Shown piece after piece: positions 4,157-62,021 of a DNA stretch of 64,000 nt (within the stretch, counting starts at the first letter, position 1; each line of letters starts with the position of its first letter). The stretch is from Apostichopus japonicus. Taxonomy: Eukaryota > Echinodermata > Holothuroidea > Aspidochirotida > Stichopodidae. Both the position numbers and the translations under genes were made by a program. Location of the stretch: positions 26,399,666 through 26,463,665 of the forward strand of contig NC_092579.1 of the NCBI RefSeq assembly GCF_037975245.1, given 5' to 3'. The notes under the pieces were generated by a model that saw only the letters and a program-made list of their open reading frames with translations, searched no databases and was not told the origin of the DNA.

Positions 4157-4450
4157 GTCTAAATTGTGCACTCTTTGGAAGAATAGAGATTTAGACAGAC
4201 TCAAAATTGGTTATATTTAATCAACTTTATCTCAAGCAAATTGGGTTATCAAATTTCAGCGTGTAACATTTTTTTTGCTTTCAGATTAATATTACATTCA
4301 TTACCTGCCCACCGCAAATGCCCTATAGAATTTAAATTCAAAATGAAAAGTTACCAAAAAAAAAATGCTTTCAAATGTGTAACACATACTTTCATATACC
4401 TCAAATTTTATATAAAATTCAACAGTTATTATAAAGTCATGATTATGTAT

Positions 4451-4678
4451 GTATTTTAGATCCTCCTGCAAGCAGGAACCCGCGAAGAAGCCATTATTGG
4501 CTTATCAAAGCCGCAAGCTGACCGAAGTCAGTGTCTTAGATTATTTAATGTCCATGATTATAAATTGTCAATTGTCAACAACTCTGTAACTGGACGACAT
4601 ACATTAATCTTCGGAGTGACTCGAACTCGGGACCTTATGATTGAAAGGCACCGGCGTTAACCACTGAGCTAACACTCC
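4451..4678 (-). mobile_element. tRNA-derived SINE, copy 1
   Basis: Read on the minus strand it starts GAGTGTTAGCTCAGTGG (polymerase III A box) and, 40-odd bases later, has CGAGTTCGAGTC (B box). A body of about 150 bp follows, ending in a 3' stem CCTGCTTGCAGG, then AAAATACATAC-type tail bases. Copies at 24897-25117 and 62507-62739 match closely over the full length. No clean TSD was found for this copy. Confidence 0.88.
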
Positions 4679-4762
4679 ATAATTATAGTACTAAATGATC
4701 GTAATAATATGCCACGATTGCCTTTTAATTGTATATTTTGTGTATCTTGTCTTACATTATAG

Positions 4763-36599: not shown

Positions 36600-38299
36600 T
36601 GTTCATTAAAGAGAACAGATGCTTCCACTGTCGAAGAAATGAGAAGTCTATGTATGAGCTCGATTTCTCCTTTTAAAATATTAAAATTCTGAATAGAAAG
36701 CTGACCACAAAACTATGCACCAAGTTGCTCTAAGTTTTGATTTGGGATGCATTCCACAAACTTGGAGACAAAAGGTCTAGCATGTTTCTCCTTGTAATCA
36801 TATACAGTTATACAGTATCTTGTAACCATTTATTAAAACCATATTCAAGGATGATATGAATACAGCTATCAATACCATTCTTGAATGAAAGTCACTGACA
36901 ATCCATTACTAATATCAGCTGCCCTATCTTACAAAATGTGCCATGCACTATGGGAAGTGGAAGAGTGACCATTGACATAAGAGGTGCAGCAATGGAAGTT
37001 GTGCCCCTGATTGACACAACGGTAATTGTAGGCATACTGATAGCTAGAGCAGTGCAAAAGTAAGTTGTCCTGACCTTTTGGTTGCATGCTGTATTGGATC
37101 ACTTCAGGAATATTTACTCTCTATCAAAAATGGATTATGTATGTACAATCAATTGCAAATGATACTTCTTTCATAACTATTTAATTCAAGATCTTTTGTG
37201 ACATATTTTAAAAATTAGCAAATCCTTACTCTCAAATTTTGAGAACAAACATATTGTGCTGCAGCATCCAAATGACATGACAGTTCTTAGCTTCTTAAAT
37301 CAGTTAGTAAAGGTATTAATTGGGTGATTACTTAACATGCTAAACATTTCAAATATCATCATTACAATTTACAAAATACAAAACATAGTTTGCATATTGA
37401 CCTGCCAGACAGAAACTTATACAGTTGCAATCACAGAAATGACTGGCTTTTTGCCAGCTTATTGGTGAATAAGGGTGGTGTTCTTGCATTAATGGACATG
37501 ATCCCAGTCTGTGATTTGAGAAATACATCTAGCCATTGAAAAAATGAGTGACGTCTAAAGCACTGGGCGCAATGTAATCTAACACAGTAACAGAATCTGG
37601 ATAAAGTTTTAGTATTGTGTAGTGTTGAGTATTCAAACAATGATGGTGGAATATTGTAGTTCAGTAGCTTCAATAATCTACCATCTTGCAAGACAAATGA
37701 ATCTGTTAGAGGAATGTTTCTCTGTATAGGCATTTAGTCCACAAATCAGTAGCATAGACCTACCTCCTACCTAGCCTAGGCTAACTTAGTGCCTAGGCTA
37801 GCTAGGTTGTTCAACATCTAAATTAACAACATAACAAATATATCCTGATATGACTGACCTGAATTAAATACCCTTTGTCGAGAGGTGTACCCGATGACGG
37901 TGCGGGATGAGTTTTCGATTCGTATTTGCTAACTAATCTCATTGAGAACCACCTGCTGCAGAATTTTGGAATGCAGACTGAATGAAGTGTTGGAACCAAT
38001 AAACAGATGATGATAGCTACCTTATTTTACTTCAGTGGGCAAGATCGAGAACAGTTGCTACGTACTATAATTTCTAAAATAATAAATGGTAAAATTTCAA
38101 TTAAAAATCTAATACTTAAATCTTGTTAATAAAATTGTGGTATGAAAATGTGTTTAATAGAAATTATAATGGTTAGGTGCATATTTGTTGCTGTTTACCG
38201 ATAAAAATGAAGGCATTATTTTATACTCATTGCAACTTAAAGCAAATTAATATGATTACGTAATGTGGGGGATTTCCAAAGTAGAATTGCAGGTGTGGC

Positions 38300-38420
38300 A
38301 GTAATGAGGGTCCGGGCGTCCGTAGGACACTTATTACTAGGAAATAGTGTCTCATTTGCGTGAATAGTGTCTCAGGGACACTTTCCCTTGCTTTCTACGC
38401 CACCGTGGAAAGTGTCCGGG
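38300..38420. repeat. GGACAC/GTGTCC hairpin-rich repeat, copy A
   Basis: Words GTCCGTAGGACAC, GGAAATAGTGTCTC, GAATAGTGTCTCAGGGACAC and GGAAAGTGTCCGGG alternate in both directions, so several short stems can form. It is related to 60320-60510. Confidence 0.6.
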
Positions 38421-38551
38421 TTCTCTTCAAAGAGCTTTAACGTGGTTCTGTTGAGTGACAAACATTTCTGGCCCTATCTACGTTCCCTTATTGCTTAAAA
38501 GGAGGTAATTTACTAGCGAAGACCAGGTTGACAATGTATGTATGTATGTAT

Positions 38552-38640
38552 ATGTGATCTTCCCGCAAGCAGGAACTCGCGAAAGAAGCCATGGAGGCTT
38601 GTAGACTCGCAAGCTGACCGAAGCCAATCTCTCGGCACAC
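38552..38640 (-). mobile_element. SINE 3' domain without the matching tRNA head
   Basis: About 85 bases match the 3' part of the SINEs at 4451, 24897 and 62507: GATCTTCCCGCAAGCAGGAA, GCGAAAGAAGCCAT and CGCAAGCTGACCGAAG. Beyond about 38640 the similarity stops and a different sequence follows, with ACACATCCATTTAAC repeated twice. It is preceded by a TATG repeat (38535-38552), the usual SINE tail. It is either a different SINE family sharing the 3' domain or a recombined copy. Confidence 0.7.
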
Positions 38641-39076
38641 ATCCATTTAACGTGTTTCCATTAACACATCCATTTAACATAACAATGTTATATATCGGTC
38701 AGCATCACCCTCAAAACTCGGTTAAAGTATAACTAATACTTCGAGTGTCGACTGTTGTGGGAAGAGGCGGCAAAATGTTATTATTATCATGGAGACTACA
38801 CTCCAGAGGGACGCTGTCCGCTCTATTTCGATCGTCGACTGTCAGAAGGCTGCATAATGAATGTTAAACTTATCTTCCGAACTAATTAGTCATGTCTGTC
38901 TGACTCTGCTGCTTATCAATCGTTACTACCATTAGGGTAGTTGTTTGGAAGGTCGGAATTTCTAAACGTTGGAGAAAGATCAACCATGTAGGTCGAAGGT
39001 AAATGTATTTTAACCGATACGCGGCGGTGATAGTTCCCCGCCATCCGGAGCATGGAGGTCAAATCCGGGGTCAGAG

Positions 39077-39104
39077 CAGGGAGTTGTTATGGAAAAACTC
39101 CCTG
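39077..39104 (+). repeat. CAGGGAGTT...AACTCCCTG hairpin, copy A
   Basis: The stem CAGGGAGTT/AACTCCCTG surrounds GTTATGGAAA; CTGGTCAG follows. An inverse copy with the same loop lies at 53563-53590. Upstream of the integrase relic. Confidence 0.7.
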
Positions 39105-39360
39105 GTCAGAGTCAATATATTTTATTCAGTACGCGGGAAATGTGGAAATCTCCCGCTCTACGTTCTAGGTGTGACATGCGTATTTGCATTCTACTGTAAA
39201 ATGTATACTGCTGTTTACTCAGTGAAGTAAGCCGAATGTGCCGTCTACGTCGTTACATGTCGCAGGCCCAAAATTTCTTAGTAGCTGCATATATGCACGC
39301 ACAGTAATTGCATTAATAGTTGAGACCGTTAACTTACTTACCCCGATCTGATATTACAAG

Positions 39361-42300
39361 ATGACTTCTCCTGACCTGGATACCGATGACGAGTAGGCCT
39401 ACATTATCATTGGAAAATATCTTTCGTCAGGACTGTACCCTGAAAAGTCTACGATAAATCTAGAAAGATCGATAAGGGGAAGATCGAAGAGTTTTAGACT
39501 GACGGGAGATGCCGATCTAGTTTACGTCGGCCCACATGGCAACGAAGATAGGCCCTTGGCCAAAGCCCACAAAATTAAAGCTTACAAGAAGGGTTTGGCG
39601 GTAAGTGTATTATTTGTTTATTTGTATAAAACTTTTAGGAATTATTTCCACTGAAGAAAATGATTCCATAGATATGCATATAACTTGAACTAAGTGCATT
39701 GGCCATTTGGGCCTTGCAGATTATAGGTATATTTTATTATTTGTAATCACCTAAGACTAAGAGTAGAACTGAAAAGTCAAAACTTTATTAGTGGTAGAGA
39801 ATATCGTAATGCATAATTATTCGGCAAGACACGAATAGTATTAGGCTACTATAGGCTAGCCTACTGTAGCCTAGGTGTAGGACTTCGAGAGGTAACCCTA
39901 TTTGCAAATAATTTGCTTTATTCAAATTCAAGCCACTCCGATTGGCAATCTCTGAAATAAAGCCTAGGCCTACTTGGTATAATTTTTGTTACTCTGGTAG
40001 CTGCCAAAACTCCCAGATCAGCTGTCAGTTACATATCAGCTGTGTATTGTGTACCCATGCTACCATGAGTATACAAGCTTTTAATTTCAATAATGATTAT
40101 GTGTTTGGAATTGCTAGGTTAAAAACAAAGAAATCTTCAGGATAGGACTTTTCAGATTTTCTGAAAGATATGTCCTGGGATTAGTCCCCTTACTAGTTAA
40201 AACACAAGGTAGCAAGGGAGAGGGGGGTCCCTGTCTTGTCCATTTGGAGGATCAATTAAATTAATGAGTGTTACTTTATTATCTCTTTCTTTTTAGAGGT
40301 TTTCCCATATTTTTTTAATTTATTGGTGCCGGGATGTGCACAGACACTGCAGCAGGTCGAATATATGCAATAGGTAATCAGTTGGCCACCTGACCATCAC
40401 TTCATTGTCAGAAGGTTAGCTGTGTTGGCTAATAATTTTTAATAAGTTTAATGGGCCTCTTTGCTGGTGATATTTTAATTATGCAAACATGTACATGGTT
40501 ATGGTATGAATATTCATTAAACATTCTTCCACAGTAATTAAGGTCAGGGGCGGCGATCTGTTTCAAATATTGGGGGGGACATGCAAGCAAATTACTATCA
40601 AAGCGAAGCGCCACCATTGGTTGGCGCGCAGCGTACAAAAAAAAAAATTCTGGTTTTGATAGCCCCCAGATCACCGGAAATGGCACTTCTCGGGCTTGAA
40701 ACTGACCAACCAGATGTACACTTTTGCCTGAGAACCAAGTTTTTCCTAATAGTTTTTTTTTTCATTCATAACCTTTTTTTCAAGATTGTCACCAGTCACA
40801 CATCATGTTCTACCTCATTGCATCTCCTGTGGATCATTGCTTTTGTAGGTAATTCTACGTAACGCCCCACAATACCCGTCAGCCCCACTTTTCAAGGTTT
40901 TAAGCCCATTATTTGTTCAGAATTTGAATAATAAATTCACTTCAAAACATACCCATAATGTTGCATAATATTTCATCTATGGACAACCAATATAGAAAAA
41001 AAAACCTCAACCCCTAACAGACCGTTCAAAATTGCACGAGTAGAGGGAAGTATGATGAAGAATGTTGGTCAAGGAATTTTCGAAAATTCAGACACAGTTA
41101 AATTATTGGTGTACAAATATTAAAACCTCTTATAACGGCTACTATAAAACTTCGATATCATAGAAAATACAAAAAAAAATATGCACGAGGGAGAGGGCGG
41201 TCTCCACCCTTCATCCCCCCTCCCTTGGCTACTCACCTGCGGTTAGAAATCTTGTAGGAAACAGGACAAATGGAAACCCAGTGAACCCATATCGATGTGG
41301 ATCATATATATGATTGTACGTACTTACACAAGATGCAAACCAAATTTCATTACGGATGCGGTCCGTCTAGCTATTCATTTCGAAAAAAAAAGTAAAAACT
41401 ACTTTCGGTCATATATAGTAAAAAATTGTGACACGGTTAGACAGGCGCCTTGCGAGGAATTTGGGAGGGGCAAAGCTTGTACCCAGACTTTCTAAGCGTA
41501 GCGCCACCATTAGTTGGCGCGAAGCGCCAAAAAAAATTCGGCCGAAATGCCTCCCAGATTGCTGGAAATGGCACTTCCCAGGCCTTGTAAGTTGCATCTA
41601 AGCATTTTCTATTTTGAAATTACTAGCGATATCATAAAAAATACAAAACATATGCTTAAAAAAAACTATGCCACCAAATATTGGGGGGGATATTTGATAC
41701 TATATCCCCCCCACCTAAAGTATTGGGGGGGACATGTCCCCCCCGTCCCCCCCATGATCGCCGCCCATGATTAAGGTTGTTAATATATGCACAAAACAAT
41801 ATTGCAATTAAATTAGTGCAGGTTAAACCATGGAGCTATAAACCTGGGATTATACAGTAGCTCCATGGACCAAGTTTATATCATTTATATTAAATTTGCA
41901 ATGTATTATCACATGTAGACACTGCTTGGTGATATACTGTAGTATTGCTAGAATAGTGACCAGAATGGACCTAAAAAACTAATATAGGCCTAGTGTAATC
42001 TCTTTGACAAATTTGAGGGTGGGTGAATAAATTTCTATTCAGGAGGATAGCTGGTTGTGGAGAGAAACAATTGAAAAAAGAGCAAATAAAAATGCACAAC
42101 AATTTGCTTTCGTTTTTATCCCACATGTTATCATGAACTTATTTGACCAAATGATAGGAGTATTTTGGTATAAGACCCTAATTTGAAAGAAAGGGATCTG
42201 AGAAGGTGGCTAAATCAATAGAAATATCAGGTTCACTTCAATTTCTGTAAGAGTCCTTGTAGGACACGAGTGGTGACAATTTCACCACCTAAGTATTATT

Positions 42301-45300
42301 TTCATCTGCATTTCAGCAGGAGGCACATGTACACCTGATTTTGATGGAATCTGCAATGGAAGTTGTGTAACATGTTTTTTTTCAAATACCTATCCTAGCT
42401 CATAGGCCTTACATGTTAATGGAATACATATGGACCACCTTATGCGTTCAGCTTATTAATGCTAGGCCTGGGTCGAAAATACTGTTCACAAGCAGCACAG
42501 TTATCACTAAATCACTTTTTTTTTGTCATCTAAAAGCAATATTTGTTTGCATGATTGTAACTGCAAAGTCATTCACCATATCAAGTTATCAACCGATGCT
42601 TAAAGTTTGCATCCCTTTGTTGGCCAGTGCAAGAGTATAAGGAGCATGTGTGGAGATTGTCCAGAGAATGAAAGATCTAGCTCATTCATTTGTTCTTAAA
42701 GTTATAATTTACTAAGCATATATTAAAGATGATCATGATGGTGGTACATTCAGTAGACTTAATGGCTCGCAGTACTGTCGGGAATTTTCATGTACTGCAG
42801 CCATAAACACAAATTTCGCTAAGAACACATTTTGGTATTTTTTTTTAGCTGCGTATAATTAAAGCAACAGGAAAACCTTTACATAGGACTTCATAATTAT
42901 CTGATATGAATTTCAAAATGAAAAGAAAACTGAATTGTAATATGAAGCAAGAATGACACATGAACATAACAGAGTTCAGTACTTGAATTGTTGTCATAAA
43001 GAAGTATCCGAGAAAATGTCCTAGGTAGTACATTCATATGCAGTTCATAACTAAAGTACCAACAGAGCCATATAGCCTTTTGTCCAAAATTCATCCCCAA
43101 TGAACCCATATGCTTATTTCAACATCTATTTAAGTAAAATTTGCTACTTGGTTAATAACCAAGAAGTCTTTCCTTCCATACTGTAACTCTACAGTGTGAA
43201 TTTCTGTCATTAATATAAAAAATTCTGCAAATTCCATTCAAAGATTAATTTGTAACATTTCTAAATGCTTACAATATATAGATACCAAAGTATAGGTTGT
43301 ACCAATGTATGCTTCCTACATCAGTTAGGTGTAACCCTGTCATCTCACTGACAGATTCCAAGGCAATTTTCTGACTAACTATCAATCACTCATCCAGGTA
43401 CTTATACATCTGTCCCCCACCCCACCCCACATTCAAAGGTGATGAAAATGGTTACCAGGCCTATGATAGTCCCTAGTGACAATTACCATCTAGGTTGTCA
43501 GCTAGATCACTGCATGTGACTTGCATCTCACTTCAGAGATTTCCCATTGGACTTCCATATAACAGCTGGGTTTGACAAGTCAGTAAGTAATAGGTTTGGT
43601 AATGAAGAAAAAAATTGGTAACAGAGTCTTCCAGTGTGAGTTACAATAAAAAATAAAAAAACAATTGAATGTTTAGCACTTTACAAAACTCAGATATAAA
43701 TCACTTGAACATCAGTTCGTATGATTAGATTGTGTATGGTTCTGAATGCCATTTTACTTCTTTTTTTAGATGGGTGTGGATATGATTGGACCCCTTCCAG
43801 AGACCATCAATGGAAATAAGTACATCATATTAACCCTATGTGACTATTTTTCAAAATGGCCAGAGGCTGTTGCTGTACAGAAACAAAACAGCAAAAACTG
43901 TTGCAAACTTTCTGTTTGAAACCATGGCCAGGTAAATATCCATCTACTTTTGTTTCTACTTTACATGGAATTAGTTATGCAGACCTGCATTTGCACTGTT
44001 TTAACTGTGACCCAGAAAGCGGCCAAATGGTTACAGGAATTTATAGAAGTTGTTTCTTAAGTTAATGTCAATGAAATGTTAGTGGGATATGGTCAGTGCT
44101 TTTAACTTACTTTTGTTTTTAAATCAGTGCTGAAATGATTTCCTGATTAAACCATGTAGCCATTCTGCAGATGCCAGTAGTTCATTACATTACTCGTAAT
44201 CAATACTTTAACAATAGTTATTTAAATGTTTCCATTTATTTAGATTTGGGTGCATGGAAATTGTCATCTCAGACCAGAGAGGAGAATTTTTTAATGCTCT
44301 GAACAAGTCCCTGTTTGACATGATAGGGGTAGACCACAGAGAATCCTCTAGCTACCACCCACAGACCAATGGGCTTGATGAAAGATTCAACCAAACTCTG
44401 CAAAGGTCACTCATCAAGGTTGTCAATGAAAACCAACATGACTGAGATGAAATGCTGTCTTCAATTCTCATGGGGTACCATACAGCCAAACATGGTTCAA
44501 TAGGTCTTTCACCTTTTGCTGTGATGTTTGGAAGGTTTGTAATAATTTAAACCTGCCATTGCTGAATAGATATTTACATTTGCTAAGGCCATATACAGAG
44601 AAAAAGCAATCAGGTATAAGAGAGTTTGGACAAATCTTGCATAGCTACACCAGTCCTCTGTACGATAAAATCTAATTTGACACATCCCAGGTCCTGGGAA
44701 AAAACGCTAAATAGAGGACCATCAATAACCCAATTTAAGTTATAATATCTAAACAAATAAATATTAACCCTGTATATGGTACACTCTGCAGCAAGTACAA
44801 AATATGAACATTCATTAAACTGTAAATACATGCCCATTAAATTCAAAAGATACATGCAATTAATGCCACTGACATTGGTTTTATTTTTCATATACTATAT
44901 ATTTATCATAATTGACTGGTATGCAAGTTGGACCTATAACAGCACAGAATATATATAAGGGATTTATATTTGTGCTGGTTTGAGTATGTGATGTGACTCA
45001 AATATCTGGTTCAATGGTCTTAATAGTGAAAATAAAATATATAAAAATTTATTTATTCTTCAGTCAACAAAGTGTTGTGAATAATTGAATGTTAATTTAT
45101 CTTCATATATCCATAGAGCCATTGCGACCAGTCGTCATGGAAGACTCCATTGTCCAACCAGAAGCTCCTACTACAGACTGCAGCGATGCACAGCGGGAGA
45201 GGGTTTTTCAACTCATGTCACAGTCGCGGGACATAATCAAAGGTGTTGTGAAAGAAAATATTGGCAAAGCCCAAGAACGGCAAAAAAAGAATTTGGATAA

Positions 45301-45628
45301 TAGGCACCAAAAAAGGTAATTATATAATGCTATGTTGTACATTGAAGTTGTAATTAAATGAATGGCAACATATGCATTGTATTATGATGTTTACGTATAT
45401 CTGCTGGATTTTATTTTATTCAGAGCTTCGAAGTTGGTGCCAGTGTTCTGGTACGGAATGCTAGAAAGGATGCCCGAAGAGGAGGGAAGCTCGAGAACTC
45501 TTGGCTAATTGGGCCGTATGAAGTGAAGGCTGTGAATGAGAAAGTACTGTACACACTTATTAACAGTATCACAGGCATTCCTCAGAAGAAGAAATTCAAT
45601 TCAATTTTACTTAAAGAATTTTGCACAA
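39361..45628 (+). pseudogene. Intron-bearing Ty3/gypsy-type integrase gene, decayed
   Basis: Separate open blocks bounded by splice signals spell parts of a retroelement integrase in order. 39361-39600 has the N-terminal segment AYIIIGKYLSSGLYP and a GTAAGT donor. 42317-42365 has an EAHVH piece of the zinc-binding HHCC region. 42640-42715 probably has its QRMKD end. 43770-43931 has VDMIGPLPETINGNKY and the first catalytic Asp. 44244-44534 has ISDQRGEFFNAL and QTNGLDERFNQTL, the second Asp and the Glu. 45117-45315 is a linker. 45424-45628 has FEVGASVLVRN and WLIGPYEV, chromodomain-like. Breaks: TAG at 39394-39396; frame changes in the 42317 and 42640 blocks and near 43882; TGA at 44443-44445. 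No LTR, gag, protease or reverse transcriptase was seen. Introns argue for a former host gene of the GIN1/KRBA2 kind rather than a fresh insertion. The middle blocks are the least certain. Confidence 0.72.
40545..41769. mobile_element. hAT-type non-autonomous element with 8-bp TSD ATTAAGGT and an internal direct duplication
   Basis: The ends are CAGGGGCGGCGATC and GATCGCCGCCCATG (inverted, one mismatch). ATTAAGGT flanks both sides, at 40537-40544 and 41770-41777. The 1225-bp interior carries no transposase. A module of about 130 bp containing GCGCCACCATTGGTTGGCGC, a palindrome-like word, occurs twice in the same direction, starting near 40605 and near 41493. A third copy sits at about 54136 in the element beginning at 54068. 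G7 and C7 runs lie beside both ends. Confidence 0.88.
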
Positions 45629-46002
45629 GTAAGATTTCTTTGCAGTTTTTTTTTTGGAGGGGGGGGGGGGGGGAGGAGGAGGATTGGCATGATTCCTCCA
45701 GAATTTCCTTAAAAATAATCAGCAACTTAATCAGTTCTGAGTATTTGGTGGCTTATGTGAGGGTAAAGTGCTGTAGCTGTCTTCACACAATAAATCAGTT
45801 TCGACTTAATGGCCTAACAAATTAACCATTATTGCCAACAATAATAAAGACGGGAATAAGTTAATTAGAAGAAAACTTCAGTTTCCTGACAATTGTTTTC
45901 AGAAATTAAATTTCATTTGTTTTAGTTTTGAGAAGATAATTTTATGTGATGTCAGTTTGAAACTCTGCAATTTAATGTTCAACTTCTGAAGAGCAGCTTT
46001 CC

Positions 46003-46210
46003 TGGCTTTGATAATAATCGTAACCTATTCATTCATGCTGGCGTGTGTGTGCGTGTCTTTGTACCGCCCACATTGTAAAAATCGAAGCTTAGATTGATCC
46101 CATAGTTTGTGCAAAAGAGTACATTGTTGAGTACAAGAAGCGTATTGTATTGTTTGAGGTCAAAGGTCATTCGGGTCAAATTGTGAAACCTTGTAAACAT
46201 GGTATCTTAA
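46003..46210 (+). repeat. Dispersed repeat carrying a DR1-like motif, copy 2
   Basis: It has GATAATAATCGTAACC, then a GTGTGTGTGCGTG run, ACCGCCCACATTGTAAA, TTGAGTACAAGAAGCGTATT and AGGTCAAAGGTCATTCGGGT. The middle is diverged from copy 1. It continues into GTGAAACCTTGTAAACATGG, the start of another unit. Confidence 0.78.
46157..46169 (+). promoter_or_regulatory. DR1 motif AGGTCAAAGGTCA, second copy
   Basis: Same perfect motif as 2817-2829, inside copy 2 of the dispersed repeat, about 350 bases before the first exon of the gene model at 46517. Function is not shown. Confidence 0.4.
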
Positions 46211-46516
46211 AGGCGATATCGCTCGTAGACTTTTTTTTGAGGGCGCTGGCATTATCGAGGTTTCAGCGAGGTTTAATGGGACCCCTATTAATCACGTGAT
46301 CCGATGGCAAATTTAGATCAGTGAATAGCACAGGCAAGCGTATGCGCAACAAGTCCGTACCCATGCACACATACTGTTATAACACAGCATTTCAGTTTAC
46401 TGTAGTTTACCGCATAGGACTTTCGTCCTCGATAGTTTGTTGTTTGTGTGCCTTTTGAGTAAAGAATACTGTACGATTTTCGTCCAAATACATTCGATTA
46501 GAGTATTGTGACAATC

Positions 46517-49500
46517 ATGGAGAAAGGATCAGGGCAAGGAGAATCGGGTGAAATAAAACGACCTTATCCTGGTACGAGCTTAGGCCTAGGCTAGGTTTAA
46601 CTGGAGGAAGGCCTTTGTTGCATGGACCTGACAAAAACAGCAGTGCAAAGGAACAACAGCGACGAAGAGATGCCACGAAGATCTATCTTCTACGTTCCTA
46701 CGTAAGCTGGCAAATGGAGAAAGAACTCTACAAACATGTCCATGATTTGACTTCTGTGAGCAACGTATATTTCGCAGGACATTTGCTTCAGGATCACACA
46801 AAAAGGTAATGATTTGCTAAGCTAGGCTAAAACTGTATAGGGTAGTTGTCCTAGGTTACATGTATAGCCTATCAGTATTGCGAAGTACAGAATACTGTGA
46901 AGTTCGGACACCCTAAGAAATACACGATTTCACCATGATAACCTACAAGCAAAAGCCAATATCACTAAACACTACGAAGCTACAGTTATTTCCTCTCCAA
47001 AATGACCTGTGTGCAAGTATGTACGTATATATTTGTCAATAAAATGAAGATATAGGAGTTTTGGGGTATTTTAAGGCTTAGGTGTTCGAACTTCGCAGTG
47101 TCTAGTATGCTATTGTATTTGTAACATACATGATTTGATATGCCTAGGCTATGTAACTAGGCCTATCGTTCATTATTTTTCCAATGGGCCTAGCGTATGC
47201 TAACCTTATCATACTTCTCCTAGCACAAAATAGCAGTAAGTTGTATTACTGAGTCAGCATCATCACTGTTTGTGAATGCTTGTCATGAAGATACTGTATA
47301 CAGTTAAAAATGAAAGTATCCTTTCTAAAGAAGACTGACTCATATTTATGCAATGGAAAGCTGGGCCTTCTCATCACCAAAACCTAAACTGTTTTTGCCT
47401 CAACAAATTGATGGAAATATATTTTCTAACCACTAGGCCTAGGTGATCTGTTCATCCCCACCCCCCTCCAGGTTCTAAATTGTTATCAGCTGTGCTTGTT
47501 TGAAGAAGATATTCTTGTGAATGAGCATTTGAAAAAAAAGAAAGAAGTTTGAAGCCTCATCTTTGCCCAGTCATAATTAACTAGGCATATATAGAACTAA
47601 GGCCTATAGTAATAAGTATCTGAATTTAGTGTTCAAAGTAACTGCATCCCCTAATTTTGTAATATGCACCAGTGAGGAAGGCCTACTGTGCTGTACAAGT
47701 ACAACCACATGGACCTGCAGTTTTTCCTATAAAGATAATGCATCTACATAAATACTGTAGAATCACTCCTAACTGATTCCTAACTGATTTTCTAAGGTCA
47801 GCCACAGCCAGCATATACGCAATCAAGTTTTAATGGTTCATTTGGGCAACGTGGTGTATATGTTATCTACTGACTCAATCATGTGTACATTTCTGCATTT
47901 GGGATTTTTGAAGGAACCCAACTGCTATGCAAGAACTAAGGTAAATTAGCCTCACAAATTGAGGGAACATATTAGTACATATAGCTACACCTATATAAAC
48001 CTTTATATTGCCATGCCTGGATGTAAGAAAGTACCAGTTTTTTTGTGTAGGCCTGATGCTATAATGTTGTGATAAGTTATCATATTTTTATATATGGGTC
48101 CATCCATGCCAAATCAACAGTGGCCTTCACGCCCACCCTCTCAGAATTGCCTGAAATTGATATGGTGTCTTGCAATATGTCTCAAAGGATGAAATTGGGC
48201 AAAAAAAATTGGAAAACTTTTTGGTTGCTAGGATACGGCCCCGTCTAGCAACCAAATCCAGATTGCATTTTAAGAGCCCTAAATGATGTGATGTTTAGTG
48301 TTCAAAAATTATAATCTATTAAATTTGGTGACGGTAACTATCTCTTGTGGAGAGTAATCTAGCGTTATTTTTGGTAGTCTGAAAACTAGCTATGCATGTA
48401 AACAGGAATTTTTCACAATGGTGGGCTTATGTCATGGAGTAAGCTAGCATCTCAATTCTCACTCATGAAACCAACTGCTCACATAAACAGGAAGTTTACA
48501 CAGTAGGTAAATAATGAGTGTACATCAAACTTTGATCAAAAGACTGGACATCTTTTAGTGATATGAAACCAATCAGTTCACTTAGACAGGAAGTTTACAT
48601 AGTAAATTGTACATTGACATGTGAGCTCAGGTTGTTGAGCAAGCAGTTGGGCAACACAAAATTATCCTCACAATTTTCTTGAAAGGTACCACGGTTTTAG
48701 GATATGTTGAAGAAGAGTATGAAAGAATATATCATCCTTATCTGGGTTTAAATCATTGTGGGTTAACAATATGTTATTATTGAAATCTGCCAAAGTGTTT
48801 GTTTGTTACTTTTCTCTTTCATATTTTTTCTTGGGTAGGTATGATCAAAACATGTTTGTTTGTAATGATTTGGTCATTACCAGATTCATTACGCATACAA
48901 TTAAGCTTGGGGTGTACAGCAAAATTACTATTTCAGTTATATGATTTACGGACATTTTTTTTGTTTCATTGTATAGGTTTCAAATGCATCTTTTCCGGAA
49001 AGATGCTGAAAGTCAAACAGAGGCATTCTCAGCAGCTGTCACCACAGAAAGATCAGTTGACACTCAGAAAGGAGAAGGTAAATTTATATGTTTATCCTTG
49101 CATGAATAACAGACTGGAAGAGCGTGCTAATCTTATATCTGATCTGATGTGATCAGAAAAATAATACAATTTCAATCTCATGAAATTCCTAAAGAAAAGA
49201 AAAGAATGGTAGCATATTGCTCATCCACTAAAAAGCGTACATATGTATGAGAATTTATATAAAAGTCAGTGGGCCTGATATTATGAGGATCTTCTTTAGA
49301 GGCAAACTTACTAGTAACAGGAAATTCAAGAGACACAATAGAGCCTGGAACAGAGAGGACATGGTGAACACAAAGAAAGAAGTTAATGGTGTATTGAACA
49401 AAAGGAGTCAGTGAAAGCAGAGGTATTTAGATAAACTGTGGAGTACAAAGCGAGGATTAAGAAAGGAGAGAGGGGGAATGAACTATGGCAGAATACAGAG

Positions 49501-52500
49501 ATGGAGCAGGATTAAGTTAGCATAGGCGTAGGAGCCTCATTTGATTTGTGGGGGGCTGAAACGACTTGCCCGAAAAATATAACCGAAATTTCCGCGCGCG
49601 ATCAACATGTTGTTGTGCATATCATATAGGCATTCATCGGTTATTACATCACATGCCAATAACATACAATCATTTTGTGTCTTATTAGCCTTCCATATTG
49701 GTTAAAATTATTGGGGAATCTGTAAAACAAAAATGATCATAACAATATAAGTTTAAACATTGAAAAACACATTGCAAAATATTCTTCTTGCAGTAGGTGC
49801 CCGAAAAAATCTCAACTTATTGCCGAATTTTCACCAAAAAAAGTGAAAAACACATTGCAAATTATTCTTCTTTCAGTAGGTGCCCGAAAAATTCTCAGCA
49901 TATTGCCCGAATTTTTACCAAAAAATGTGGAAAACACACTGCAAATTATTCTTTTTTCAGTAGGTGCCTGAAAAATTCTCAGCATATTGCCCAAATTTTC
50001 ACCAAAAAGTGTGAAAAACACACTGCAAATTATTCTTTTTTTAAGTAGGTGCCCGAAAAATTCTCAGCATATTGCCCGAATTTTCACCGCACATTGCAAA
50101 TTATTCTTCTTTCAGTAGGTGCCCAAAAAATTCTCAGCATTTTGCCCGAATTTTCACCAAAAAATGTGAAAAACACACTGAAAATTATCCTTTTTCAGTA
50201 GGTGCCCGAAAAATTCTCAGCATATTGCCCGAAAAATTCTCAGCATATTGCCCGAATTTTCACCAAAAATTTTGGTTGGGGGCTGCAGCCCCCCCCCCCC
50301 CGCCTCCTATGCCTATGTAAGTTAGTTATGTCCTTCTTGTATATTGAGCCCATTCAGTTGAATGGTGCTAAGGCATTCCGTCCACTCTCTCTATCTCTGC
50401 TGTGGTGTACTATGTCTGAGATGGTTAGTCTACGAATTTAGTTACCTGTTGGGACATGTCTTACTTTAATGGTATGATTGGGGAACTGAAAGTGTTCCCA
50501 TACTGGAGTCTCCATTTTCATTGTATTGACCTGTGACTAGAACTGCTTATTGAGGGTGGTCTTGGTTTCACCAACATACTTGTAACTTCAATATCTTCTA
50601 CTTCAATGTCCTCTAAACTCAATGACACCATTTAAATTGAAATATCAGTTTCCAGTGCTGCGAAAGTGTGATAAGTTCTAAACAAAAGTATATTTTTAGT
50701 CACAGCCATAGTAGCTATAGCAGGATACTTGCAATCTAGTAACAAATGTTTTATGTAATCTTTACAGATACTTCTGATCCAGTTACTTCAACACCTCTCA
50801 AGAAGCCATCTGCCATGTTCTGTCCAATGTCACCAGTAGGATTAGATATGGAGCAGCATGGGAGAGAAACCTCAGACCATACAAATTCACATTGCCACAT
50901 TTACATGATCCTGAACAAAAGATATCATACATATGGCAGGGGCACTTTTCCCATACTTTTATTGACAGGTTGTGCGACATTCACGTTGGATTAGCAGCTA
51001 TTGATACATCTGCATCACCAGATAGAGATAAATTGCTTTCGTCCATTTTGTTCGATAGTAGCTATGACTGTGAATCCGAAGCTTGGCCATCCTCTAAGTC
51101 AAGGTGGGCAAGGTTGGGGAAATTCAATCAAGGAGTAACAATCAGAGAATGGCCAGCTTTGTATTATTGTATATAGGCCTACACACACAGCGGGTGTAAA
51201 TATCTGTATCGGTTTATTTATACTGGTGTTCATATCCGTTGCCAGGAGGCAGGAGGGGATATGATTTGAATGTGGGGAGGGTGTGGGGGGTGGGGAAGGG
51301 GTCCCCTTTGAAGTGTTCAAACGATGCTACATTTTACATCTATCTTCTTGAATCACATGTATATTAAACACCCCTATAGACACGACCAATCAGTCCTGTC
51401 TCTCACCTCCTCTCATGCACTGGTGTATTTATTTCCTGGCAACATAACAGTTAGGCATAGTAAGGGTCAGAGGTCATCACAACTTAAAGAGTTGTGTGAG
51501 TCCCTGTGGTCTCTTACATCCTTGTAGCAGTAGGGAGAAGAAGCCTAATAGATCAGAAACCATGATCATCTTCTGTTGTGTCTTATTTTCCAGCATCCTT
51601 GAAACATTATATCCTTCCCCTTTGATTTCTTGATGTCATAAGCTGTATTTATGTGGTGCATTATTTAATTCCAGTATTGAGATTGTATATTCTTCTTGTG
51701 TATTTGACAGTATCCCAGTGATCTCCATTTTCTGCTCTTGGTTTTCTTTTCTCTGTATTTCATATCATATCTATCTCTACCCCTAACCTCCATCTCCACA
51801 TTTTCTTTACTTTCTTCCTCCATCCCTTCATCTGTCTGTCACTCTTTCTTTTTTGACTTCTTTCCTTCCCTCTGTTTACCGTGTATGTTTTAGTTTGCCG
51901 ACTCCCCCCCTTACATCTTACCCCCCTAAAAAATGTTCACAAGGTTGACAAGTCTCCCCATGCTAGTCCCAAGCTATACACCTTTGTTGTGGTGACCGTT
52001 CACTATACTTGCGGATCAAATGGAAAGCCCCACCCCCACCCCTTACTTCCCAGTGTCATGAATCGGCAAATGGAAGATTATTCGGAGTTGTTCGTGGACG
52101 GTTCAATGATCTTATAGTCAGGCATAGGCCTATATGGTTCTCTTTGTCCTTCATTGTTGTCGAAGTTTGAAATGAATTAATCGTGCTAGGAACTTCCGGG
52201 CAATGTTTAATTTTCTGTGGCAAGAAAAAAAAGCTCCCCCCCCCAGTGTCCCTCCTGGTTGACTAGAGCCTGTACGCCTATATGGTCACACAATAGTATA
52301 GATAAGTATGAGCCATGCAGACAGCTTTTTTTTTCTTTTTGAAAATTCAATCCAATTTGAGTTATAGTTTCGAGTTGTAATTCGAGTCAGTCGTGATGAG
52401 GTGCCCCGTGGTGGGGCTGGGTAACCCACCCCAACCCCGTTGCCGACTTTTTGGCATTTCTTTGGGAGCCGTTCGGACCAAGAGGCAGGATAATTAATAC

Positions 52501-55500
52501 TGGAGTACAGTACGCTGGAAAGCAATAAACTGACGTGATTTAGAAAAAAAGTTTTTTGCCTTGACTGCCGATGTTCAGCGAGTCACTTTTCAATAGAAAT
52601 AACTATTAATTTATTGTTCATGTACTTATTCCCTTTTTGCCAATCCTTTCTAAAGAGGGTGGAGCTGCCCCTTATGGCAACGTATTTTCGTTCCCTTTTC
52701 CGTTCAAATTTCGTTATTTTTAATTCGGGTCAAAGGGGTGCAAGGACAGGGTTTACGTGCACCGGTTAGGAGGATGGGGTGCAGCTAGAGCAAGTGTTCT
52801 GTGATCGCCTAAAGAGCCCGTTGTCAGGAGTCCAAAAATAATTAAATATACATATTTATCTATATATGTTTTATGACATAAAATCCTCCTGATATATAAC
52901 TAACATTTATATACAAAATACAATGTAAGTTGTGACTGTGTCTATATGTGTAATTAATACCTAAATTGGCTGAAATACCAATTGTTCACATATGATGGAC
53001 TTGACCATACGTTTGATACCCAATATTGAAATCACTTCAGTCAATTTTTTCACTCATTCGCGTCTGTCCTTTTTGTGACACGAGTCAATGTATCAGACAT
53101 AAACTTCACTATAAGTTTCTTGAGCTGTGAAAGAATGTCGGCTCGCAACTAAGGTTGCAATATTTCAAATACTTTACTCAGGTTAGTACAAGACTGGCGC
53201 ATCTGTAAAGGTTTGGAATACACTGGTTTTTTACAGTAAAATAGCATTAAGTTACTGTACTTCTATAGGCTAAACTTCTGATATTCGATACAGCATAAAA
53301 GCATGCAGAGCTTTCCAAATCAGTGAATCAACTACGAAACCAGGGCATCCGAACAGTTCGGACTTCGACTGTTCACCATGTGGGCCTAAAAGAGTAAAAG
53401 CAGGGAACCGCTAGAGTAGCAGCTCCCTGGTCAAACTATTACACCTATACTGTACAGCCCACTAGTTGTGAAAAGTTATGAACGTAAAAAAAAAACCACA
53501 GAGTTTTGTATCACACAACACACACGAAAACGCGACGTAATAATTTACCGCATACTACTGACCAGGGAGTTTTTCCATAACAACTCCCTGTACTGACACT
53601 GCCACAGACAAGAAACTATGCAGGAATTTCGCCAAGGCCACCGCTTCAGGTAACCAAACCCGTTTATTGCTTACTAGCCGTAAATACGGGATTGCTGAGA
53701 AATTACGAAACAACAGCGACGAACCGGTAGAGGGTAGTATTGATATTATTTTTGAATCGGTCGGTGTGAAGGACAGAATTAACGAGGAAATTACGAGCGA
53801 TCCCACCTTTAATATTGGAAGCTTGGGCAGATCTCGTACTTGGTAAGATAGTGCATAACATTGAGTAAAAGAAACTGTTTGATTTTGTCGGAGGTCATAA
53901 AGGTCATTTGAAGTCAAAAAATGCCAAAGTTACCTCACTCCCCTCTAACCTGTCCCTACACTAACGCACCTTCCTAAACATAATATTTCAGAAGCTTGGA
54001 ACGATCGCATCTATGATATGTAATTGTACCACATTTAGTACAGAAGCCTAATGTTGTGGGCCGAGGTCATAGGCGTACGGGACCATTTCAGTTTGGGGGG
54101 GCAGAGAGTTTTGTGCCCGAAAGTTCCCGTGACACTATCTAAGCGGAGCGCCACCATCGGTTGGCGCGTAGCGTACAAGAAAATTTTTTGGCAAAAAAAG
54201 CCTCTCAGATTGCCGGAAACGGCACATCTGAGGCCTTGCAAGTTGCATATAAACATTCTTTATTTTATAATCTCACATTTTAGAAATTTACACTTCCCCA
54301 ATAATTTGGCAAATTAGAAGAAGAAAAAATGGTTACATCACTTTGAAGAGGAAAAATAGGACAGTATATTTTTTAAGCTCATATTTAGTTACCGTATTTA
54401 TTATTTTAACACAGTACTCAGCTACCTCCAGAAAAACATACATTGTTCAACGACACGTAGGCGGGATAATGTCGCTGTGTCGGGTGAGACTGCAATTTGT
54501 CTCACAAAACAGTATAAAATGTAACAAAGAATATGATAAACCTGTACTTCTAGGTTTGTAGGCACTCCCCCCCCCCCCCCACCATCCATTCCATCAAAAA
54601 GAAAATGTTTCTTATATACACTCATGTCGGAGATGTCCAGGTATACAGTTGACTAGTTAGAAAAAAAATTGATCGCGCAAAAAGCGTGGTAGCCCAGGTG
54701 AGCTGTGCTTACGGTGGTGTTACACGGAAATATTCGGGCATCATGATGCTAAATAAAGAAAATCAATGAATTGTCGGGCAAAAATTTGAAAAAGATTTGG
54801 GCAAGCTACTGCATATTTATATATATATATATATATATATATAGTTTCTCCTCTTAGGCTGCCCGAATTTTCAGGACTTTTGCCCGAATTTCTTGTCCTC
54901 TGGAAATTTGTTTTTTAAGACTCCCCCCCCCTCCAGGCCTATTTTTACAATTCATGGTTAAGTAAGTTTCCAGTGTGCTATGATTGTGTTCTTTGCTTTG
55001 ATTCAACAGAGATCTGTTTGCAACAGTTTTTCTTCAAGTTCCACAAAGCAGTTGTATGACCAATTGAAGAAACTCAAAAAGTTTGAAGTACAGTAAGTGT
55101 TAAATATTTTATTAAAGTGGGATTATATGCACTCCATAATCATGCAGTTACTGATACCAACCTCGGTGGTATACATTGGCAGTTACAAGCAAAATTTTGT
55201 AGTGCTTAAGCAACTCTCAAAATTCAAGCAGAAACAAATATTGATTAATATTAATGATAAAGGTGCTCTACCTGTTACCTATCATCATCGCTCGGCCAAA
55301 CGCTTTGAGATGTTTCGCTACTTGTTGCAAACTTTTGTTGTGCTATATAGTAATGATATGTATACTTTCAATGGTTAAGCACTGCATTTAAAGGAACTTT
55401 TTATTGAAAAATGGGATCCAGTCCTTCTGGTCATATCATTGTTTGTAAGTTTATCGCCCTAAGCCTTGCCTTGTCATGAATTTTACTTTCTGTGATTGAG

Positions 55501-56113
55501 TGCTTGAACTGTTGGCCCGTCCTGCCAGAAAATTTGAATATAACACTGACTTACGTCGAGACGTGACCTTAGTGCTGCACATAGGTCACACTTGATCAGA
55601 TCTCACCCTAACCTTGCCTTGATACAATACACAGGAATGCGTACAGACTTCAATAGGCTATCAACTTGCCATACTGTATATCTGAATGCTCGCATGCTCA
55701 AGGAGGATCAGATCCCACACTTGGGGATTCAAGTTGCTATACTCTGAATAATCGCATGCTTAAGGAGGATCAAGCAGACCCCACAAATGAGGTGATCAAC
55801 TTGCTAGTCTGAATGCTCGCATGCTCATGGAGGATCAGATCTGTATTTGTGGCAATAAACAATATTGCTAGTCTGAATGCTTCACCTTGTTATTACCGAA
55901 TGCTGCAACATACATTAATTTGAAGTACCCATTCGTAATGATTGCTGAAATCATGTTTTCACAGTAATATGTACTTTCTATTTAATTTCTGTAACTTTGA
56001 AGCAATGCTTACTATTCATGCGTCCTTTTTTTTGCAGGCTGAGTTACCTCAATGACGTTCTTGTCTCTCATGCTGTGGACCATCTCTACCACCTTGTACC
56101 ACCTTCAATATGA
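46517..56113 (+). CDS. Possible multi-exon gene of unknown function (model only)
   Basis: Candidate exons with matching phases are 46517-46571, 46607-46805, 48977-49077, 50768-50835, 55010-55092 and 56038-56113. Donors include GTAATG, GTAAAT, GTAGGA and GTAAGT; acceptors include TTGTATAG, TTTACAG, TTCAACAG and TTTTGCAG. The conceptual protein has a basic stretch (EQQRRRDATKIYLL), then SNVYFAGHLLQDHTKR, then DAESQTEAF, then a Ser/Thr/Pro-rich part, and closes with QLYDQLKKLKKFEVQ and HLYHLVPPSI. I do not recognise a named domain. The layout (a short folded block with a conserved LL.xH segment followed by an acidic QTE motif) resembles the N-terminus of uncharacterised invertebrate proteins; this is an impression. 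Weak points are the 35-base first intron and an overlapping open frame at 50778-51176. A hAT element (49521-50317) lies in an intron. The exon pair 46607-46805 plus 48977-49077 is the firmest part. Confidence 0.42.
48221..48255. repeat. Short inverted repeat, 11-base arms
   Basis: TTGGTTGCTAG (48221-48231) pairs with CTAGCAACCAA (48245-48255) around GATACGGCCCCGT. It lies in an intron of the gene model at 46517-56113. Confidence 0.65.
49521..50317. mobile_element. hAT-type non-autonomous element with 8-bp TSD TAAGTTAG, filled with an 83-bp tandem repeat
   Basis: The ends are CATAGGCGTAGGAG and CTCCTATGCCTATG (inverted, one mismatch). TAAGTTAG occurs at 49513-49520 and 50318-50325. Both ends are followed inward by G-rich or C-rich runs beside a GCTGCAGCC-like word. 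The 797-bp interior contains no transposase; most of it is the tandem array at about 49760-50270. The element lies in an intron of the gene model at 46517-56113. Confidence 0.88.
49760..50270. repeat. Tandem array, about 83 bp x 6, inside the hAT element
   Basis: The word CAGTAGGTGCCCGAAAAA (or a near match) recurs at 49791, 49874, 49958, 50043, 50113 and 50196. Spacings are 83, 84, 85, 70 and 83 bases. Each unit also holds TTCTCAGCATATTGCCCGAA and AAACACACTGCAAATTATTC. A small extra duplication of about 24 bases follows at 50210-50250. Confidence 0.92.
51177..53400. other. No gene recognised; introns of the 46517-56113 model if that is real
   Basis: A pyrimidine-rich tract and several G or C runs. 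No further exon was found. Confidence 0.45.
51715..51895. repeat. Pyrimidine-rich stretch
   Basis: About 180 bases dominated by CT-rich words (TCTCTACCCC, CCTCCATCTCC, CTTCCTCCATCCC, CTTTCCTTCCCTC). No open frame supports a gene; it could form a triplex-prone tract. Confidence 0.6.
53401..53590. repeat. CAGGGAGTT-type hairpins, copies B and C
   Basis: 53563-53590 is the inverse complement of 39077-39104, loop included (TTTTCCATAAC). 53401-53429 is a looser relative (CAGGGAACC ... AGCTCCCTGGTCA). Together with a CTCCCTGG hairpin inside the element at 27749-28561, these form a small dispersed family. Confidence 0.65.
53870..54067 (+). repeat. Dispersed repeat, copy 3, cut by a hAT relic
   Basis: It has GGAGGTCATAAAGGTCATTT (spacing changed relative to DR1), CAGAAGCTTGGAACGATCGC, TACCACATTTAGTACAGAAG and ends GGGCCGAGGT. 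There the hAT-family relic beginning at 54068 interrupts it. Confidence 0.6.
54068..54950. mobile_element. hAT-family relic related to both 40545-41769 and 49521-50317, right end unclear
   Basis: It begins CATAGGCGTACGGGACC, like the left end of 49521-50317, followed by a G7 run. It carries the GCGCCACCATCGGTTGGCGC module also found twice in 40545-41769. TGCCCGAATTTTCA, the array word of 49521-50317, recurs at about 54860. A C-rich run with GGCCTAT near 54924-54950 may be the damaged right end. No TSD was found. It interrupts a DR1-type dispersed repeat right after GAGGT at 54067. Confidence 0.55.
54817..54843. repeat. (TA)n microsatellite inside the hAT relic
   Basis: Thirteen TA units following GCATATTTA. 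Confidence 0.9.
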
Positions 56114-57299
56114 TATGTGGTGTAAACATGCATTTTTTCAGCTTGAATGTGGTTACTTATTAACTTCTCTATTCAGTCAATAATTTTAAACTTTTATGTA
56201 TAGGTATAGGTTGGTGCCAAGGGTGATCAGAGCATTTCACCAGGATATGAAGGGAGGCTATCCAAGCTGAATATGATGAGGTTGGAGATAATCAGGTGTT
56301 TGAGTATAACAACCAGTGGTTAAGACAAGAACTTGATAATTTATGATAAAAAGGTTTCTTTCTTTCGTGCATATCGTTATTGTTTGTCCCCCCACCCCCA
56401 CTGATAGACAATTCCAGAAAAAAAAATCCCGCTTAAAGTTTAAGTATGTTTATATGTGCAAGATAGATTAAAAACAGCAAGCAACAAGAAAAACAAAGCA
56501 TAAATGCCTTCAGATAGCACTTTTTGGAACCGGCATAAGTGTCCTTATATTAAGCAATATTTAATTCACACATTCCCTCTGTTCAAACCACACTAGATTG
56601 GTTTCAATTCAATTCATAACCCCCCCCCCTCACACACACACTTCCACCCCCTCCATATATATCAAAGGGTCTGTTTTTCTCCCCCTGGCAAGGAGGAAAA
56701 TGTGCACACAATTAGTATACTGAATAGAATTAGTATTTCTATTATCTTATAATGCATTTAGTAATGGCATTGTAAGGTTGAATCAAGAGCAATGTTCCCA
56801 GAGAACTCCAGTCAGAATGATGGTATAAGTAAATCCTGGGATTGTTTTTGTTGATTGTGAAGTTCAAAGGACTCTAAGGTGACAAAATTCTAACAAAAGT
56901 CTCACATAACAAGCATATATTTTACCACACGTAGAAATTAAGTTGTTCTATTGGTAGTTGTAATCTATAAACTCATGTGTCACATCCAGGACAGTAAATG
57001 GCAGTTAGTTCGTCTTTCTTCAGGTAAATGGAATTTTTACATTCACCATCTAATTTTTAAAATTCTGTTCTGCTATGCTTTGCTTTGGTCACACGAATAG
57101 GTACTAATTAACAGAAAACTGGCTAAAACAAGCAGAACAATTATCTTTCCAAGATGAGGGAAGCCAGCTCACTTGATATAGCATACATTCATTGTTAGTT
57201 CTAAGCATAAACTTAGAGTCGTGACGGTATGGGTTAGAAAAAAATGATTTGTCATATTGCGTCATCTCAATATCAATGCTTAATTTGTTGCTGATTTAA

Positions 57300-57740
57300 T
57301 AAACCTATGCGTTAATACTTGTGTGTGCGGTATGACACCTGGCTTCAAACACGCTATCTCTAGAAGGGAAGCTTGGAAAATATAAGATTTGGCATGTATG
57401 TGAATCATATTGATTATATCCTATATTTTTGAGGTGGATGTCAAAGGGTAAACAGGGTTCAAGTTGTGAAAACCTTGTAAAAATTATAAGTTCAAGAAAG
57501 GAAGCTGAACAGATATCATATTTAGTCTGTAAGTATACCACATGGCTAAAAGAGGCCTTTGTTATTGTGGAGATTAACAGTGGTCAAATTTTGTAAACCT
57601 TTAAAACTTGATATCTCAAGATGAGGAAGCTGGAAGAAATCTCATATTTACTGTAGTATGTATCACATTGAGTGAGTACAAGCAGGCTATCAGTGGTCAT
57701 TTGTGTCAGCATCTGTCATTGTGAATATACTGTTTGTCAC
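57300..57740 (+). repeat. Dispersed repeat, copy 4, with at least two tandem units
   Basis: Units of about 125 bases contain TTGTAAACCTTTAAAACTTG, ATCTCAAGATGAGGAAGCTG, CTCATATTTACTGTAGTATG and TATCACATTGAGTGAGTAC. A diverged unit precedes at 57470-57590. The DR1 word is degraded here (GATGTCAAAGGGTAAAC near 57436). Confidence 0.65.
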
Positions 57741-57935
57741 TTCTTGCTGTATTACTAAAGATCAAGTGTGTCAGTATGTCCCATTCATATGAAAGGATAC
57801 TCATGTTGGATCATAGAAACCACAGTCTGGTTTATGCATACATGCTACTTGACAGCTGTCCTCATATGCCATTCAAGTATATCAAGGCAAGTAACAACTG
57901 GGATATAGTTTCTTTATCTGTGATGCATTATGTAG

Positions 57936-58490
57936 TTGTTGCAACTGAATAAGTGTTTTCGTAGAAAAGGTCTTGTATCATGTAAGTTAACTAAAATCTC
58001 AATTAAAGATGCAGAAGTAGAACGCACTCATCATACAGTATATCTAGGTGTTTGTATTGATGACAAACTAAGTTTCACTGGTCATATAAGCAGAATACTT
58101 AAACGGGTGTACTTCATAGTCTCAACTCTATCGTATATAGTTCCATATTTTCATGTTGATGTAAGCAAAAGAGTTTTTACTGCCAATATCTTACCACACC
58201 TAATATATGCTGTTTCTGCTTGGTATCACTTTTTACTAATTAAAGATAATAAGAGAATTTTTTTTTTAAAGTATTGTTCTAGAATTTTTAATATAGATTT
58301 TAACTTTCTAATGAGTACTGTAAACAATGCTGCTAAAAATGAGTTCATTAGAAGTGTAAATTGCATACAGAGAAATGACAGACATTCTTTGCATACCGAA
58401 CTTAACTCTCTACTTCGAGAAACTACTAGGTATAATCTGAGAAACAAAGCAATAACACCAAAATTCAGAATTAATGTGTATAGATAGTAT
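57936..58490 (+). mobile_element. 5'-truncated LINE: C-terminal part of a non-LTR reverse transcriptase
   Basis: One open block of about 180 codons reads as the thumb and C-terminal part of a CR1/jockey-type non-LTR reverse transcriptase. It has YLGVCIDDKLSFTGHISRIL, then SYIVPYFHVDVSKRVF, ANILPHLIYAVSAWY and, near the end, LRETTRYNLRNKAITPKFRI before a TAG. The catalytic palm motifs and the endonuclease domain are missing, as expected of a copy truncated at its 5' end during target-primed reverse transcription. The frame is intact over this stretch, so the copy is fairly young or is read in the wrong context only by chance. A TATG-type microsatellite begins about 85 bases after the stop (58575-58660) and may be the element's 3' tail. 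The exact clade is not decided. Confidence 0.75.
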
Positions 58491-58574
58491 AATTATTTTA
58501 TTTATCTTGCTGCTATTTTATTTACAAAATGGTAATCTGGATCATTTATTGTAGACAGCTGCACTTGTACGTTT

Positions 58575-58660
58575 TGTATATATATATGTGTGTATATGTA
58601 TGGGTGTATGTGTGTGTATATGTGTGTATATATGTATATGTATGTGTATGTATGTGTATT
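58575..58660 (+). repeat. TATG/TGTA microsatellite after the LINE reverse transcriptase
   Basis: Mixed TATG, TGTG and TATA units begin about 85 bases after the LINE stop codon. This is a likely 3' tail of the element, or slippage grown from it. Confidence 0.75.
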
Positions 58661-61600: not shown

Positions 61601-62021
61601 GTTAAGTAGACCTGGATTAGTGCAAAGTGATGCACAGTGTAGGGAGAACTTTCCAAGATGTACATATATGTTGAAAAGTACCTTAGTGTTTCCTGTTGGT
61701 TCTAGTATCATGCATACAACCATGGAAGTGCAGTTCAGTAATCTTCAATTTAAGGAACACATTAATATGATGTTCAGCCCTCTGAAGTTCAGGAAATGCA
61801 TGTAGACTCAGAGCCTTCTAATGCAGACATATCATGGTGTAAGGTGTAACATCTCCGGTACAGCCGTAGCTTCACTAATGTACAAAGCATGTATTGCAAG
61901 TTTCAACCTAAATACTTCTTGTAGACTGATATGTAATTGGCATAATTTATAAATAACAAATGCATGTAACGAAACATGCAGTTAAGATCATTCGTTGATA
62001 TTGACCACAGAACCTGAAACC
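58661..62021. other. Upstream flank of PMS2, no gene recognised
   Basis: It contains the GGACAC hairpin repeat. An open frame of 92 codons at 59785-60063 has no recognisable motif. The PMS2 promoter or a first exon should lie near the right end. Confidence 0.5.
60320..60510. repeat. GGACAC/GTGTCC hairpin-rich repeat, copy B
   Basis: GTCCGCGCGGAC, GTCCGTCCGGACA, CTGTCCGCCGGACAC, TCCTACGGACACAATTCCC and CCCGGACACTATTCCC follow one another. GC content is well above the surrounding DNA. It shares the GGACACTATTCCC / GGGAATAGTGTC word with 38300-38420. Confidence 0.6.

Follow-up and report, generated by a model that had tools for sequence, protein, structure and literature searches.

Blocks of a Ty3/gypsy-type integrase, separated by spacers with splice signals and interrupted by stop codons, lie in order over some 6 kb of the Apostichopus japonicus genome, and they raise the question of whether a host gene or a mobile element has decayed at this locus. 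We analyzed a window of 64,000 nucleotides around these blocks, located on contig C19. A first-pass annotation of the same DNA had offered two readings, a duplicated and decayed host gene or an intron-rich element family. The second was right, except that the family is one of DNA transposons of the Ginger1 type and not of retroelements. We are confident that what lies here is a Ginger1-type cut-and-paste DNA transposon, in a dead and non-autonomous copy that would have arisen from an autonomous element of about 24 kb by internal deletion and have been moved in trans.

Compared as protein, the five integrase exons in the window match those of a relative free of stops, with E values of 1e-27 to 1e-55. 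Exon 1 (39361..39600, plus strand), which encodes a putative YPYY-like region, is 68% identical to the corresponding exon on contig C12 (E 1e-33), is broken by a TAG at 39394, and ends as in C12 at the donor GTAAGT at 39601. The exon with the first catalytic Asp (43770..43931, plus strand, E 1e-29) has the splice sites of the intact copy and a frame change inside it, while the exon with the second Asp and the Glu (44244..44534, plus strand, E 1e-55), which have DD35E spacing in the intact copy, contains a TGA at 44443. In exon 5 (approximately 45115..45315, plus strand), the splice acceptor CAG of the intact copy has become CAT. Exon 6 (45424..45628, plus strand, E 1e-32) encodes a GPY/F-type module and is followed by the donor GTAAGA at 45629. 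The splice signals reported earlier, that is, these two donors and the AG before 43770, are indeed splice sites of the intact copy, and both in-frame stops and the frame change near 43882 are real. The earlier reading of the blocks was correct for these five; however, the zinc-binding block that it listed is absent, and the C-terminal block is of the GPY/F type (WLGPYKV in the intact copy), not a chromodomain. Specifically, neither the window nor any stop-bearing copy that we fetched contains the H2C2 zinc-finger exon (C12 element 3887-4068). We rejected the idea that this exon is hidden in the spacers of the window, as none is there: 1.67 kb that includes it is gone at position 43682, where the alignment gap corresponds to C12 element 3576-5248.

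When six copies were aligned, they shared a left end at window position 38294, and the inverted form of this end was located at 60475-60496. The left terminal inverted repeat (TGTGGCAGTAATGAGGGTCCGGGCGTC..., 38294..38323, plus strand) is the left end of all aligned copies and pairs with the right one (60467..60496, minus strand, reverse complement TGTGACAGGGAATAGTGTCCGGGCGTC). The match between them is clear over approximately 27-30 bp and gives way to a looser, GGACAC-rich similarity (the inverted repeats of Ginger1 span about 40-270 bp), and the termini, TGTGG... and ...TCACA, have the Ginger1 form TGTNR...YNACA. Identical copies of a target-site duplication, CAGG, flank the element at 38290..38293 and 60497..60500. 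From the paired ends and an alignment to a 13,271-bp copy (C3:14290097-14303367), the whole element occupies 38294..60496 on the plus strand, or 22,203 bp including nested inserts. Its 3' half (53809..60496, plus strand) aligns with the final 6 kb of the complete element on C12 and is 98.4% identical to the C3 copy and 84-89% identical to C12. We rejected position 46210, where the first alignments stopped, as an end of the element, because it is an insertion point. Neither the two ends (38294 and 60496) nor the target duplication had been noticed in the first-pass annotation, which also missed three nested inserts and about 40 sister copies. Beyond the element by 1.5 kb, at 61986-62231, lies an exon that, judged by eye, is similar to the beginning of PMS2, a mismatch-repair gene.

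Inserts of about 0.14, 1.2, and 7.6 kb make the window copy longer than its sisters. We therefore rejected 22 kb as the native length of the family: the sisters are mostly 13.3-13.9 kb long, and nested inserts account for about 9 kb of the window copy. The smallest insert (38538..38681, approximately 144 bp) is missing in the C3, C12, C2, and C7 copies. The second (40545..41769) is a hAT-like non-autonomous element with ends CAGGGGCGGCGATC...GATCGCCGCCCATG and an 8-bp duplication, ATTAAGGT, and is missing in the sister copies aligned across that point. The largest (46211..53808) is a dispersed repeat with a TTAA duplication and ends AGGCGATATCGCTCG and AGGTGGGATCGCTCG, of which the genome holds approximately 40 copies or more; it is also found inside the sister copies at C9:7773407 and C20:20749998, where it is identical over the 1.2 kb tested. 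The C9 copy is flanked by a CTGG duplication and the C20 copy, checked at its ends, by CCAG. Because the two share the insert and have different target duplications, the 21-kb insert-bearing form apparently transposed as one unit after taking up the insert. The element also contains a fragment of a non-LTR reverse transcriptase (183 aa, window 57936-58487), which is present in the C3 copy as well and falls in a stretch that the complete C12 element does not have.

A protein search with the integrase found approximately 38 loci at 89-97% identity in the same genome. The TGA is common to about 37-38 loci, that is, to nearly all of them, and the TAG to most exon-1 matches, and the flanks of loci carrying the same stops are unrelated. 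Duplicate genes decaying independently would not end up with identical stops at so many loci, so the family has multiplied since the stops appeared. Genome searches with each end of the element returned at least 40 left ends and at least 40 right ends. These pair at 32 sites or more, with a median length of 13.7 kb among the listed ends, although the longest pairs may include a few whose ends belong to separate copies. An exact 4-bp target duplication flanks 14 of 20 other copies; 4 more are off by one base and 2 have no near match. Exact duplications are also present, beyond those 20, at the window, C3:14290097, C20:20749998, and C12 (CCGG). The target sites are mostly CCGG, CTGG, CCAG, CAGG, and CCTG, often within TG-CCGG-CA. 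Among seven copies of the dead window family, pN/pS is 0.77, close to neutral.

A domesticated gene of the GIN1/KRBA2 type, duplicated and then decayed, would explain a multi-exon integrase with no LTR, gag, or reverse transcriptase. It would not explain why the window copy and its sisters have inverted repeats and 4-bp target duplications, or why the same stops recur at about 38 loci whose flanks are unrelated, and we consider it highly improbable. What we found is also not a fixed single-copy GIN-type gene free of element ends, as there are inverted ends, a duplication, and about 40 copies. Since the element carries introns of its own, introns in the integrase cannot be read as a mark of domestication.

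An intact relative with the same intron positions does exist: it is complete on C12, and further copies were read in part on C9 (from 19181815) and C17 (21.02-21.03 Mb). It is an autonomous-looking transposon rather than a host gene. The complete C12 element (C12:11101394-11125538), which falls within the span covered jointly by loci L060, L045, L061, L062, and L063 (C12:11101350-11127800), measures 24,145 bp from TGTGG to CACA with CCGG on both sides, and its left end is 98% identical to that of the window copy. The intact relatives share the left end, and the one on C12 is bounded by both ends, which again argues against a host gene. Six integrase exons, with GT-AG sites and agreeing phases, join to encode 429 aa that contain an H2C2 zinc finger (PF17921, E 8.5e-18), a DDE domain (PF00665, rve, E 1.6e-9) with DD35E spacing, and a GPY motif. 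This GPY/F motif, SWLGPYKVKDV in exon 6, aligns with the same motif in L049, described below, and in the gypsy-like integrases L104-L107. Upstream of the zinc finger, KYLSSGLYPEKST...SFKL...LVY is in a position that fits the YPYY motif, as judged by eye from the text description of that motif. The 5' flank of the element (L060:15-44) adjoins GGTTCGATCCCCGGTGCCGG, a sequence resembling a tRNA end or the end of a tRNA-derived repeat.

Compared with the complete element, the window family is without the 1.67 kb that holds the zinc-finger exon and without the stretch that holds all exons of a ubiquitin-specific protease (USP), which are absent from the 3' half of the window element (53809-60496). 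On this alignment, the window family is an internal-deletion derivative of the complete element. The near relatives on C9 and C17 have the same left end and no stops in the exons read. Measured against C12, their pN/pS is 0.30 for C9 (11 synonymous and 12 non-synonymous changes) and 0.27 for C17 (7 and 7), both from small counts. Set against 0.77 in the dead family, values of about 0.3 suggest constraint, and the coding exons of the stop-free copies appear to have been subject to it. A diverged, degenerate relative (75% in the integrase) occurs at C19:31.06-32.30 Mb, at C20:0.33-1.40 Mb, and at the ends of C4, C11, C14, and C21 (L050). It recurs every 170-230 kb or so near contig ends with flanks approximately 99% identical, as if in very large tandem repeats, and USP-only relatives recur similarly at C12:14.8-17.3 Mb.

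The integrase of the window family is 34-38% identical to gypsy integrases, and this kinship could be taken to mean that the locus is the remnant of a Ty3/gypsy LTR retrotransposon. Several observations make such an origin barely credible. No LTR was found, as the first-pass annotation had already stated; the ends of the element are inverted and not direct, and the introns are conserved among copies. No gag-pol was seen in six-frame ORF lists of the element region of the window, the 13.3-kb copy, and the part of the C12 element that was read; reverse transcriptase is represented only by the non-LTR fragment described above, with no counterpart in the complete element. In an integrase tree, moreover, the C12 integrase groups with that of L049, apart from the gypsy-like integrases sampled, with 100% support. 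L049 (L049:3307-5200; C23:5797306-5799199) is a second Ginger1-like element, with an intronless 507-aa integrase ORF that, after a frame change, continues into a stretch with Ulp1-like (PF02902, E 0.0017) and PHD-like similarity; the Ulp1-like match is weak. It is the sole Ginger1-like reference in the tree, assigned by that Ulp1 match, which is below the curated cut-off. As published Ginger1, GIN1, and KRBA2 sequences were not included, our filing of the family under Ginger1 is based mainly on the ends, the target duplication, and the domain order.

Downstream of the C12 integrase, four exons with GT-AG sites join in phase into a USP domain of 271 aa (PF00443, E 5.5e-28). Its Cys box, His box, Asn-Asp, and two CxxC pairs are all retained, and its best matches among solved structures are USP36 and USP14. 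Searches of open-access papers returned no Ginger element carrying a USP or C19 domain, and thus no earlier report of a USP domain in a transposon of the Ginger1 type. We lean toward the reading that this is a giant, 24-kb Ginger1 lineage in which a USP-type deubiquitinase has become part of the transposase, which would be a third, independent recruitment of a ubiquitin-system protease after OTU and Ulp1. The domain lies inside the inverted repeats, retains its catalytic residues, and takes the position that a C-terminal OTU or Ulp1 protease has in other Ginger1 elements (PMC2836005). It is also present in a more diverged lineage, and so in two diverged lineages at least, usually 4-5 kb 3' of the integrase; the approximately 20 loci of that lineage are near-identical large repeats and count as one or a few independent cases.

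The structure of the junction points the other way. Integrase exon 6 ends in phase 1, and the first USP exon starts in phase 0 after 3.6 kb. Inspection of this stretch by eye in three frames revealed no exon linking the two, and reading on past exon 6 runs into a stop soon after. The USP could then be a separate gene of the same Ginger1 element, or a host gene captured as cargo, rather than the C-terminal domain of the transposase, a reading that we hold to be possible though rather unlikely. Integrase and USP may be one gene or two.

The most probable history and movement of the family would be as follows. An autonomous element of about 24 kb would have lost its zinc-finger exon and USP exons by internal deletion and given rise to a dead family, whose gene gained stops and a frame change while both ends were kept. 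An intact copy would be transcribed and spliced to yield an integrase-like transposase, with or without the USP attached. This transposase would bind the ends, remove the element, and insert it at a CCGG-like site with a 4-bp stagger; supplied by intact relatives, it could act in trans on dead copies whose ends are good and carry them to about 40 sites. The traces of these steps are present in the sequence, as ends, duplications, shared stops at different sites, a complete relative, and exon constraint; the steps themselves we infer. Bao, Kapitonov and Jurka suggested that the OTU and Ulp1 proteases of Ginger1 take part in transposition by removing ubiquitin from the transposase or from repair factors (PMC2836005), and the USP might likewise shield the transposase from ubiquitin-driven breakdown or target repair factors where the DNA is broken. 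Their idea would gain support, and a concrete test, from a third class of protease in this role. An independent third recruitment would point to deubiquitination, or the removal of ubiquitin relatives, as a required and convergently acquired part of Ginger1 transposition. The family further indicates that DNA of 13-24 kb can be mobilised by Ginger1 machinery, even in copies that carry other transposons.

Ginger1 elements, also named GIN transposons (Marin 2010, cited in PMC3424704), connect gypsy integrases with vertebrate host genes. As described by Bao, Kapitonov and Jurka (2010; PMC2836005), they are 2.6-7.1 kb long and have 0-4 introns, TGTNR ends, inverted repeats of 40-270 bp, and target duplications of CCGG or CCGT; most encode an OTU or Ulp1 protease at the C-terminus. 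The present family resembles them in its intron-bearing, gypsy-like integrase with a putative YPYY-like region, H2C2, DDE, and GPY/F (complete in C12, the window copy having lost the zinc finger), in its TGTNR ends, in its 4-bp duplication, which is CCGG in the complete copy, and in a ubiquitin-system cysteine protease 3' of the integrase. It differs in its length of 24 kb, its nine or more introns, its inverted repeats of about 30 bp with looser similarity farther in, and its use of CTGG, CCAG, CAGG, and CCTG targets in addition to CCGG. The protease of the C12 element is a USP (PF00443, peptidase C19) instead of an OTU or Ulp1; because Ginger1-1_BF has neither OTU nor Ulp1 (PMC2836005), we did not treat these domains as an exclusive mark of the group. 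A USP-family protease is likewise tied to a transposase in the Trichomonas protein XP_001314237.1 (transposase_11 plus Peptidase C19; PMC2836005), but there the transposase belongs to an unrelated family, in a protist. The Ginger1-derived host genes GIN1, GIN2, and Imagin are also multi-exon integrases with introns at least partly inherited from transposons (PMC2836005, PMC3424704, PMC12863088); they are fixed genes without element ends, whereas the window family has such ends and numbers about 40 copies. Finally, Ginger2/Tdd elements share TGTNR ends and an integrase-like transposase with the window family, but they have AT-rich targets (RTATAY) and no GPY/F or YPYY motif (PMC2836005), whereas the targets here are GC-rich and the GPY motif is present.
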